Of a stretch of DNA of 64,000 nucleotides, positions 11,201-14,085 are shown in pieces. Position numbers and translations under genes: made by a program. Source of the DNA: Mesorhizobium ciceri WSM4083 (GTDB taxonomy: Bacteria; Pseudomonadota; Alphaproteobacteria; Rhizobiales; Rhizobiaceae); the NCBI RefSeq assembly GCF_000519305.1, contig NZ_KI912610.1:404862-468861 (forward strand). Direction: 5' to 3'. The notes under the pieces are model-generated. The model did not search any database, was not told where the DNA came from, and worked only from the letters and a program-made list of their open reading frames with translations. Position 1 is the stretch's first letter. Each line of letters begins with the position of its first letter.

Positions 11201-11446
11201 AAGAACTCGCTGGATGAGATGACCGTGCGGCGCACGGAAAAACCGGTCGAAGGAAAAGTGCCGGCCAAGCCGCAGCCAATCTCCCCCCAAGTGGGGGAGA
11301 TGCCCGGCAGGGCAGAGGGGGGCGCGAAGGAACGCGACGGCAAACCAATCGTTCGCCAGCGCGCCGGCATCGGCTCCTACGAGGACCCAGGCGACGCCCG
11401 CCGCGAGAAGCGCCGGCCTGGCAAGACGGGCAGACCGGGGAAGTAG
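8276..11446 (+). CDS. uvrB: excinuclease ABC subunit B, with long N- and C-terminal extensions
   Basis: UvrB is the DNA-damage recognition helicase of nucleotide excision repair and works with UvrA and UvrC. The core is intact: Walker A GVTGSGKT at about 217-224, the beta-hairpin region [12 protein letters not shown], the DESH box at about 516, helicase motifs through RAARNVDG, and the C-terminal UVR domain ([19 protein letters not shown]) at about 815-845. At 1056 residues it is far longer than the usual 670. About 180 low-complexity residues precede the core and about 210 follow it. The tail holds four degenerate copies of an LFxKxSxDEM motif and an in-frame palindromic repeat (11274-11325). 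ATG 8276 is chosen; a TTG at 8249 is possible. Confidence 0.97.
11274..11325. repeat. palindromic repeat inside the uvrB coding sequence
   Basis: This segment (CAATCTCCCCCC ... GTGGGGGAGATG followed by CAGAGGGGGGCG) belongs to a family of rhizobial intergenic elements but is read in frame as [16 protein letters not shown] in the UvrB tail. An inverted, diverged copy lies at 11472-11525, just past the stop codon. Confidence 0.75.
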
Positions 11447-11471
11447 GTTCAAATTATTCGAGACGCTGGCG

Positions 11472-11525
11472 GGACAGCCCCCCTCTGTCGTGCCGGACAT
11501 CTCCCCCACGAGGGGGGAGATTGGC
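11472..11525. repeat. inverted partner of the uvrB repeat
   Basis: Its reverse complement (GCCAATCTCCCCCCTCGTGG ... GGGGGAGATGTCCGGCA ... AGAGGGGGGCTG) closely matches 11274-11325. The two copies flank the last 120 bases of uvrB in opposite orientation and could pair in the mRNA. Confidence 0.7.
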
Positions 11526-11627
11526 AGCTTCACCGCATCGCTCCCTCCTGGGCCGCCCCCCTTGCCTCCACCCCCGCCTTTGGTGTAATCGCTCCGCACA
11601 CTCGAACGTCTCGAAAGGAGGGCTCAC

Positions 11628-11699
11628 GTGTTTACGTTTCATCGTCACCATCGTCAGCGTGGCCCGATTTCTGCCCTGCGAGCTTGCTTGCAGGGCTGA
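11628..11699 (+). CDS. candidate 23-residue leader peptide upstream of the ABC-F gene
   Basis: GTG 11628 is preceded by an excellent ribosome site (AAAGGAGGG, 6 nt away), better than that of most genes in this window. The 23 codons encode a basic, His/Arg-rich start (VFTFHRHHRQR) and end RGPISALRACLQG before TGA 11697-11699. The stop codon lies between two alternative RNA stems. Upstream ORFs that sense ribosome stalling are known before several ABC-F genes (for example msrD and vmlR-type systems), so a regulatory leader is a reasonable inference. The sequence itself matches no leader that I recognise. Confidence 0.55.
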   Translation: MFTFHRHHRQRGPISALRACLQG

Positions 11700-11740
11700 C
11701 CAGGGACGGGTTTTTCCCGCTTCGATTTTTTGGTCTGCCC
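11673..11740 (+). promoter_or_regulatory. two mutually exclusive hairpins (attenuator-like) before the ABC-F gene
   Basis: Hairpin A pairs GCCCTGC (11673-11679) with GCAGGGC (11690-11696). Hairpin B pairs GGGCTGACCA (11693-11702) with TGGTCTGCCC (11731-11740), nine pairs around one T-T mismatch, and encloses a CGGG/CCCG stem and T-tracts. Both need bases 11693-11696, so they cannot form together. The leader stop codon sits in the shared region, so a ribosome there could shift the balance. This is the geometry of a translation-coupled attenuator. Confidence 0.5.
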
Positions 11741-11836
11741 TTCGTGGTGCTGCAACGCCGAGCCTGATGGCCAGCACGCGCACCGTCAAAGTGCATTGAG
11801 CCGGACTTTTCCTCCGGCAAGACCAGAGAAATCAAA

Positions 11837-13363
<1,527 letters not shown>

Positions 13364-13456: not shown

Positions 13457-13473
13457 GTATCATGCCATGGTAC
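13457..13473. promoter_or_regulatory. inverted-repeat operator of the HigBA operon
   Basis: GTATCATG-C-CATGGTAC is an 8+1+8 palindrome with one mismatch, 19 bases upstream of higB. A related half-site GTATCATG occurs at 13420-13427. A TTGACT at 13443-13448 placed 17 bases before CATGGT would put the palindrome over the -10 box, as expected for autorepression by the antitoxin. Confidence 0.5.
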
Positions 13474-13491
13474 GCCACTCGGGTCGGCAAG

Positions 13492-13773
13492 ATGATACGC
13501 TCGTTCAAAGACAAGACCAGCGAAGCCGTTTCGAACGGCAAGGCTCCGAAGGGCTTCCCCTCGGACCTTGTCCGCTCAGCCCAGCGGAAGCTGTTCATGA
13601 TCGACAACGCCGCCGAATTGTCGGATCTGAAGATGCCTCCCGGCAACAGGCTTGAGCCGCTGAAAGGTAACCGTGCGGGCCAGCATTCGATCCGCATCAA
13701 CGATCAATTCCGCGTCTGCTTTCGGTGGGTGGAAGGGCAAGCGGAGGATGTTGAAATCACCGACTATCATTGA
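13492..13773 (+). CDS. higB: type II toxin, RelE/HigB family
   Basis: A 93-residue protein with the HigB mRNA-interferase pattern: MIRSFKDKTSEAV at the start, RSAQRKLFMIDNA, then PPGNRLEPLKGNRAGQHSIRIN and the C-terminal strand QFRVCFRW near residues 72-80 with ITDYH at the end. HigB toxins cut mRNA on the ribosome. The toxin gene precedes its antitoxin, the order typical of higBA. ATG 13492 fits the family length; the frame is open ten codons further up, inside the operator. Neutralised by the protein encoded 13 bases downstream. Confidence 0.88.
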   Translation: MIRSFKDKTSEAVSNGKAPKGFPSDLVRSAQRKLFMIDNAAELSDLKMPPGNRLEPLKGNRAGQHSIRINDQFRVCFRWVEGQAEDVEITDYH

Positions 13774-13785
13774 AGAGGGTTCAAA

Positions 13786-14085
13786 ATGCTGAACATCAAC
13801 CCACCTATCCATCCCGGAGAAATTCTCCGTGAGGAATATCTCGTGCCGCTCAATCTGAAGCCTTACACGCTGGCCAAAAAGCTGCATGTGCCCCGCACAC
13901 GCATCGAGCGCCTGGCCAGCGAGACGACACCGGTAACGCCCGATACCGCTTTGCGCCTTGCGAAGTTCTTCGGAACCACGCCGCAGTTCTGGATGAATAT
14001 GCAGGCGAGCTACGACCTCGCCGTAGAGGGAGAGGCGAAGAAGGCCGATCTTGAAACAATCGAACGTCTACAAACCGCGGCCTGA
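13786..14085 (+). CDS. higA: HigA family antitoxin, XRE-type
   Basis: A 99-residue protein. The start NPPIHPGEILREEYLVPLNL is the classic HigA/VapI opening, followed by a helix-turn-helix (YTLAKKLHVPRTRIERLAS) at about 27-46 and the family's TALRLAKFFGTTPQFWMN segment. It should bind and inhibit HigB and repress the operon through the palindrome at 13457. It begins 13 bases after higB, with a GAAGAGGG ribosome site, so the two are co-transcribed. Confidence 0.92.
   Translation: MLNINPPIHPGEILREEYLVPLNLKPYTLAKKLHVPRTRIERLASETTPVTPDTALRLAKFFGTTPQFWMNMQASYDLAVEGEAKKADLETIERLQTAA

Follow-up and report, generated by a model that had tools for sequence, protein, structure and literature searches.

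A short open reading frame (ORF) and the RNA hairpins overlapping it, located in front of an ABC-F ATPase gene of Mesorhizobium ciceri WSM4083, most probably constitute a translational attenuator that would be induced by ribosome stalling around the codons GPxxAL. Comparison of sequences between relatives supports the leader ORF, the selection on the core of its peptide, the hairpin P1, the complementarity of RNA segments 2 and 3 as well as 3 and 4, and the linkage with the ABC-F gene. If true, this would mean that leader control of ABC-F genes, here with a deeply conserved longer leader and a fixed internal motif, reaches the alphaproteobacteria, far beyond the Gram-positives. All positions given below refer to the plus strand of the window, i.e. 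the whole stretch of 64,000 nucleotides that was analysed.

Organization of the leader

The leader ORF (11628-11699) counts 23 codons plus TGA. It starts with GTG at 11628, its stop codon ends at 11699 and the product is VFTFHRHHRQRGPISALRACLQG. A Shine-Dalgarno sequence, AAAGGAGGG, can be read directly at 11614-11622. The conserved core of the peptide, GPxxA(L/P), corresponds here to the codons Gly-Pro-Ile-Ser-Ala-Leu (11661-11678), which form the proposed stall region. From the stop of the ORF to the ATG of the ABC-F gene (11837) there are 137 nt, and the genome itself holds one copy of the leader. Re-reading of the Shine-Dalgarno sequence, the arms of both hairpins and the ATG in the window showed that the coordinates of ORF, hairpins and ABC-F gene in the earlier note were correct.

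A search of the whole window with the covariance models of Rfam 15 yielded no family at or above its gathering score; two irrelevant weak matches (E up to 5) both lie outside the leader. Scanning of 11440-11860 for promoters and terminators returned no promoter and no terminator-like site. A near-palindromic C/G-rich stretch (TCTCCCCC ... GGGGGAGAT) is present twice, at about 11278-11320 within the 3' end of the uvrB ORF and at about 11480-11535 immediately 5' of the leader.

Occurrence and linkage with the ABC-F gene

The ABC-F gene is accessory: at E 1e-80, protein searches detected it in 57 of the 297 family genomes; in the class (E 1e-120) it was found in 9 of 289, own genome counted, and in a draw from the phylum (E 1e-100) in 17 of 299. 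The uORF and hairpin precede 71 of the 72 orthologues reached in this way (family 57/57, new class loci 7/8, new phylum loci 7/7), far more than would be expected by chance. A strict automatic test recognizes the leader at 66 of the 72, and five of the six misses carry one on reading (L066, L084, L102, L107 and L074); the leader Shine-Dalgarno sequence is weak or absent in the first three. The sole orthologue lacking the leader is L101, with an identity of 61% and an AT-rich upstream region in which no leader is recognizable. At L074 the hairpin is normal and the peptide reads RQIRHLSAL instead of RQRGPVxAL; having no Gly-Pro, it is a natural variant that could serve to test the need for these residues.

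The converse scan used a pattern for the leader only, with one genome per species, and gave at least 118 loci, which are by definition picked for having the leader. Among the matches listed, an ABC-F gene is found at 118 of 118: within 900 bp at 116, and at the remaining two once more sequence was examined. Short DNA matches to the leader lie upstream of an ABC-F gene in 33 of 35 cases; the other two, L092 (26 bases) and L093 (21 bases), were rejected as chance matches and have no ABC-F gene as a neighbour. Within what was searched, the leader accompanies this ABC-F gene and nothing else.

Hosts among the matches listed include Mesorhizobium, Rhizobium, Ensifer, Aminobacter, Bradyrhizobium, Bosea, Devosia, Pelagibacterium, Phyllobacterium, Roseomonas and Nisaea, and among the named loci listed the highest ABC-F identity is seen in Mesorhizobium. 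The gene is also present on 12 plasmid records, and all six plasmids examined (two of Sinorhizobium and one each of Shinella, Rhizobium, Gemmobacter and Ketogulonicigenium) carry the leader. The arrangement had been proposed as a rhizobial one; it does occur in rhizobia but is not confined to them, as leaders are seen in Devosia, Bosea, Roseomonas, Nisaea, Gemmobacter and Ketogulonicigenium. At L034, L088, L234 (genome G217) and L086 (genome G178) the leader is intact, but the ABC-F match, which covers residues 236-507 or, with one TGA in it, 134-506, lacks the N-terminus. These loci are probably decaying copies that have retained their leader.

Samples used for comparison

After removal of duplicates, 218 loci gave 188 upstream regions. 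Detection of the leader required CC three codons ahead of Ala, and 186 regions passed; the other two were read by eye, resulting in a leader without Gly-Pro (L074) and no leader (L101). Dropping L101 leaves 187 non-identical leaders. The pattern scan supplied over half of them, which inflates conservation because such loci are selected for the leader; the 70 leaders that came from the protein search were consequently counted separately. Left out before this count were L034, L049, L086, L088, L107, L205, L225 and L234, where the N-terminus of the ABC-F protein is absent or the upstream sequence short (leaders were nonetheless seen). The leaders of L074, L170 and L212 were placed manually. The tree for codon changes includes 182 of the 187, five proteins under 350 aa being omitted, and the covariation alignment A1 holds 62 of 77 representatives, three with a poor segment 3 having already been set aside. 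Further tests relied on representatives of the 187: 68 for pairing against other species, 140 for the fold switch, 134 for prefix folds and 137 for the position control.

Pairing between the RNA segments

We adopt the four-segment naming that is in use for the ermC leader. Segment 1 (11673-11682) is the 5' arm of P1. Segment 2 (11687-11703) contains both the 3' arm of P1 (11687-11696) and the 5' arm of P2 (11693-11703, GGGC plus TGACCAG). Segment 3 with its U-run (11724-11740), defined by fold and conservation, contains the 3' arm of P2 (11731-11740) and the partner of segment 4, which in turn is the purine-rich region around the ABC-F ribosome site (11816-11833). The pairs 1:2, 2:3 and 3:4 can all form, and segment 4 contains the ribosome site. 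Support differs per pair: covariation for 1:2, conserved complementarity for 2:3, and a position control together with a cross-species test for 3:4.

P1 is a perfect 10-bp hairpin (11673-11696). In the alignment 98.4% of its cells are paired and six of the ten pairs have changes on both sides, for instance CTG/CAG to CCG/CGG in Gemmobacter (L097), Ketogulonicigenium (L098), L105 and L106. Its covariation score amounts to 0.280 against 0.151 for shuffled alignments, a value reached by none of 500 shuffles, and sliding the stem yields at most 0.084. For P2, 90.6% of the cells are paired against at most 56.2% when slid, and four pairs are doubly changed; the score of 0.160 is close to that of shuffles (0.148), 42 of 500 being as high. 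Also, segment 3 was located by its similarity to GGTCTGCCC, a choice that favours P2, and only 45 of 68 leaders show a better 2:3 pairing of their own than the average obtained with partners from other species. Whereas covariation, named in the earlier note as a check on both stems, thus argues for P1, P2 is conserved with weak covariation. The two hairpins had also been described as mutually exclusive. This holds for the lower part of P2 (GGGC:GCCC), which is barred by P1, but the upper part (GACCAG:CTGGTC) can stay.

The cross-species comparisons and the position control are based on the best local helix, scored with a simplified stacking table; shuffles in the former are plain letter shuffles. 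Duplex energies of whole segments were swamped by long spurious pairings and were replaced: for 2:3, a mean fraction of 0.52 of the cross pairs did as well as the own pair, with z < -1.65 in 21 of 93 cases, which by this measure is hardly a signal.

Segment 3 is in addition complementary to the ribosome site of the ABC-F gene, an element absent from the earlier note. In the window, GATTTTTTGGTCTGCC (11724-11739) lies opposite GGCAAGACCAGAGAAATC (11816-11833), three bases 5' of the ATG, and folding of the window leader pairs the U-run of segment 3 with this purine-rich start region. Over 137 leaders, the pairing of segment 3 with positions -26 to -1 has a mean of -18.0. The means of four control windows lie between -9.0 and -11.0, and the start-site pairing is the stronger one in 100/111, 118/132, 124/137 and 123/137 comparisons. 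Differences are smaller for 48 divergent leaders (mean -13.3 versus -10.2 to -10.5), where the start-site window is stronger in 13/23 (not significant), 31/43, 35/48 and 37/48. Of 68 leaders, 52 (26 of 39 divergent ones) have a better 3:4 pairing of their own than the average obtained with partners from other species, and 59 a better one than the average shuffle. In Gemmobacter the fold places GATGAGAC, directly 5' of the ATG, opposite GTCTCATC beside segment 3; judged from the sequences, the pairing is the same there and the letters are different.

It might be argued that the hairpins choose between termination and read-through, intrinsic or Rho-dependent, as for vmlR and msrD, and that the start-site pairing is secondary. 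Most published ABC-F leaders, in the excerpts of their accounts used here, indeed rely on transcription attenuation, often with translational control added, and so does, in the part of the report used, a rhizobial uORF elsewhere (PMC12218461). In the Mesorhizobium leader, a T-run even lies no more than 7 bases downstream of a CGGG/CCCG hairpin. This T-run, however, is absent from most other genera in the alignment and in the window is explained by the fold as the partner of the start site, with which segment 3 pairs specifically in the position control. Taken with the lack of a terminator-like site in the scan of 11440-11860, this makes transcription attenuation an improbable account of the leader, and control of translation the preferred one.

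Selection on the leader peptide

Of the 187 leaders, 185 have Gly, 186 Pro, 187 Ala and 182 Leu (the other five have Pro in place of Leu). Counts for the 70 leaders that were not chosen by pattern are 68, 69, 70 and 65, respectively. Pro is encoded by all four codons, both in the 187 leaders (94/56/25/11) and in those reached by protein search, and of the 39 changes that its codon underwent along the tree (182 ABC-F proteins), 38 concern the third base. On the same tree the amino acid changes once at Pro against 26.0 expected and twice at Gly against 15.4 expected; with the 70 leaders only, the numbers are 1 against 14.1 and 2 against 10.0. For codons -5 to -2 together, the changes at the three bases are 24, 19 and 116. 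Ala and Leu were excluded from this reading because P1 also fixes them. The comparison indicates that the peptide is under protein-level selection for the core GPxxA(L/P). The leader is selected as a coding sequence and is presumably translated. Synonymous changes thus prevail at Pro and Gly in relatives, which had been suggested as a check on the uORF, and as both the ORF and the stems are conserved there, one refuting condition of the earlier note, the absence of such conservation, does not apply.

Around the core the peptide is variable. It counts 15 to 28 residues; Pro sits three codons ahead of Ala in 186 of 187 leaders, and the length from the (assigned) start to Ala varies, with 13-16 codons in 184 of 187. 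The residue after Pro belongs in the six commonest classes to V, I, D, R, N or G. Arg is seen at -7 in 162 leaders and at -5 in 155, and His at -8 in 132 (of 187 each). Residues downstream of AL are free: L087 and L100 stop immediately after it (GPRLAL and GPRHAL) and further leaders stop within the hairpin loop, e.g. after GPDYALHH. The LQG end of the window peptide is missing from leaders with an early stop and therefore looks like an RNA constraint. Of the two ends that had been highlighted previously, the His/Arg-rich start is common and LQG is not part of the selected core.

The abundance of Arg and His before GP could point to sensing of amino acids or charged tRNA, ribosomes waiting at these codons under starvation as in biosynthetic attenuators. 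Yet it is Gly, Pro and Ala that are invariant, not Arg or His, Arg at -5 occurs in only 42 of the 70 non-pattern leaders with 13 changes on the tree, and the controlled gene is not biosynthetic, so that this explanation is very unlikely. We give equally little credence to the view that the product of the ORF functions as a small protein, or that the ORF is simply coupled to the ABC-F gene, with a hairpin that only stabilises the mRNA: conservation at the protein level would suit it, but the peptides end anywhere past AL (right after it in L087 and L100), the spacing from GP to the hairpin is fixed in the 187 leaders, which a free peptide does not need, the gaps to the ABC-F start (33-226 nt, 33 being the miscalled row L170) argue against simple coupling, and the start-site pairing would be left unexplained.

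Proposed mechanism and fold tests

We infer that the leader is translated, that ribosomes stall on it and at which site, what induces this, that the switch works in the cell, and what the ABC-F protein does there. Without inducer, ribosomes would complete the leader ORF and P1 (1:2) would form. Segment 2 would then be unable to pair fully with segment 3, which would pair with segment 4 and hide the ribosome site of the ABC-F gene. With an inhibitor, most likely one in the peptidyl-transferase centre or the exit tunnel, the ribosome would stall around the GPxxAL codons and cover segment 1. Segments 2 and 3 could pair fully once both are transcribed, segment 4 would stay open and the ABC-F protein would be made, which may then clear stalled ribosomes. 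The order of folding would have to contribute, as 2:3 can presumably form well ahead of the transcription of segment 4.

When segment 1 is covered in silico, equilibrium folding shows an increase of more than 0.1 in start-site accessibility for 35 of 140 leaders and a decrease for one. With spacers shuffled once per leader, 10 open and 15 close; averaging five shuffles per leader gives 1 up and 0 down, although averaging damps extremes. The direction of opening is clear, the size is small, and most leaders change little: 105 of 140 have no clear opening, including the window's own (0.40 to 0.40). Because of these 105 leaders, the model needs co-transcriptional folding. In prefixes that end before segment 4, the expected number of 2:3 pairs is 12.0 with segment 1 covered; shuffles give 7.6, and so do prefixes with P1 on. 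At least six 2:3 pairs are present in 130 of 134 covered prefixes, against 118 of 134 for shuffled spacers (shuffle mean). Part of P2 is retained in 113 of 134 prefixes with P1 on. Given the drop from 12.0 to 7.6 pairs, P1 weakens P2 rather than abolishing it.

A more specific reading can be offered only tentatively, and we hold it to be somewhat less probable than its opposite: GPxxA(L/P) might be a new inhibitor-dependent arrest motif, acting as an alphaproteobacterial sensor of a natural soil ribosome inhibitor and switching on, by translational control, a not-yet-described Gram-negative class of ribosome-protection ABC-F proteins. As leads, such an inhibitor could resemble the phenicols, or it could be a peptide of the type of the rhizobial azole peptides. 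Chloramphenicol is said, in the part of the source used, to stall most after Ala, Ser or Thr (PMC12121999). An invariant Ala ahead of the proposed stall would suit this, which is only a lead because Ala is also fixed by P1. Phazolicin, described in the excerpt used as a rhizobial azole peptide and ribosome inhibitor, represents another lead.

Relation to known leaders

Statements on published systems in this section are based on excerpts of the papers cited. In ermC, a ribosome stalled on the leader (ErmCL) alters the RNA fold and exposes the Shine-Dalgarno sequence of the next gene (PMC10219788). The leader described here is alike in its short ORF, the expected exposure of the next Shine-Dalgarno sequence and the 1:2 / 2:3 / 3:4 design; it differs in preceding an ABC-F ATPase instead of an rRNA methylase, in its occurrence in alphaproteobacteria and in its peptide.

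Closer in gene type are vmlR, cplR and msrD, whose leader ORFs with alternative RNA structures precede ABC-F genes and which use intrinsic terminators; cplR and vmlR combine transcription attenuation with translational control, and the cplR leader also hides a Shine-Dalgarno sequence (PMC9226507, PMC10201436, PMC10314930). The ABC-F genes reported under leader control (vmlR, vmlR2, cplR, lsaA, vgaA, lmo0919, msrD and lmrC) are Gram-positive, and the quoted ORFs, mefAL included, are tiny with 3 to 8 residues: MIN, MRI, MAGN, MYLIFM and MTASMRLR (PMC9226507, PMC10201436, PMC10314930). The present leader shares with those of vmlR, cplR, msrD and lsaA an ORF ahead of an ABC-F gene and alternative RNA structures, but has 15 to 28 residues with an internal GPxxA(L/P) core and, unlike the first three, shows no terminator-like site in 11440-11860.

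Arg is essential in the RAPP/RGPP class of arrest peptides (ApdP, ApdA, ApcA, SecM-type; PMC12992588). Most leaders do contain Arg-Gly-Pro, but a second Pro is lacking and Arg is found in only 155 of 187; membership of this class was rejected, the R-(A/G)-P-P core with essential Arg being absent. Two other uORFs are comparable in part. In Sinorhizobium meliloti the translation state of a DUF1127 uORF controls the next gene under tetracycline via C-rich codons (PMC12218461). Like the leader studied here, as we read it, this is a rhizobial uORF controlling a downstream gene under a ribosome inhibitor, though it uses transcription attenuation and tetracycline and the gene is unrelated. The TopAI-YjhQ uORF (toiL) of Escherichia coli senses several ribosome inhibitors and is linked to Rho-dependent termination (PMC12121999); a leader ORF with proposed sensing of inhibitors is shared, whereas that termination, the peptide and the gene set it apart.

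No account of a GPxxA(L/P) leader or of its alphaproteobacterial setting was found in Rfam or in open-licence full texts, which is not proof of absence from print. Those texts likewise yielded no data on expression, ribosome profiling or resistance for this gene. The relation between leader consensus and inducer has been flagged as a question that warrants follow-up (PMC10201436, in part). The 187 natural variants of one leader, including one without Gly-Pro, bear on it.

The ABC-F protein

The downstream gene (11837-13363) encodes 508 aa and was assigned by profile match as well as by comparison of a structural model with the PDB. Domain search reveals two ABC_tran stretches. In the model (pLDDT 90.5) a long helical-hairpin linker, with helices at 207-249 and 252-280, connects the two ABC domains and there is no membrane domain, as is characteristic of ABC-F proteins. 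The top PDB matches are ABC-F proteins too, with Z values of 33.7 for VgaL, 33.4 for VmlR2, 32.9 for VgaA-LC and 32.2 for EttA. Profile comparison ranks VmlR2 best (261.8 bits) and gives 242.2 bits for YheS. The model is only slightly further from EttA than from VgaL and VmlR2. Scored with the 'ribosomal protection-like' model NF000355 the protein reaches 294.3 bits, below the cut-off of 380, and it lies even further under the cut-offs of the named NCBIfam resistance models. The linker counts 74-75 residues across 37 relatives and, in the alignment, is without an insertion that is present in VmlR2. Database records name the family 'ABC-F family ATP-binding cassette domain-containing protein'. 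On account of the leader, the family probably consists of inducible factors for ribosome protection or rescue in rhizobia and their relatives.

Directly 3' of the gene, at 13462-14085 of the window, a HigB-like toxin gene and a HigA-like antitoxin gene are located.
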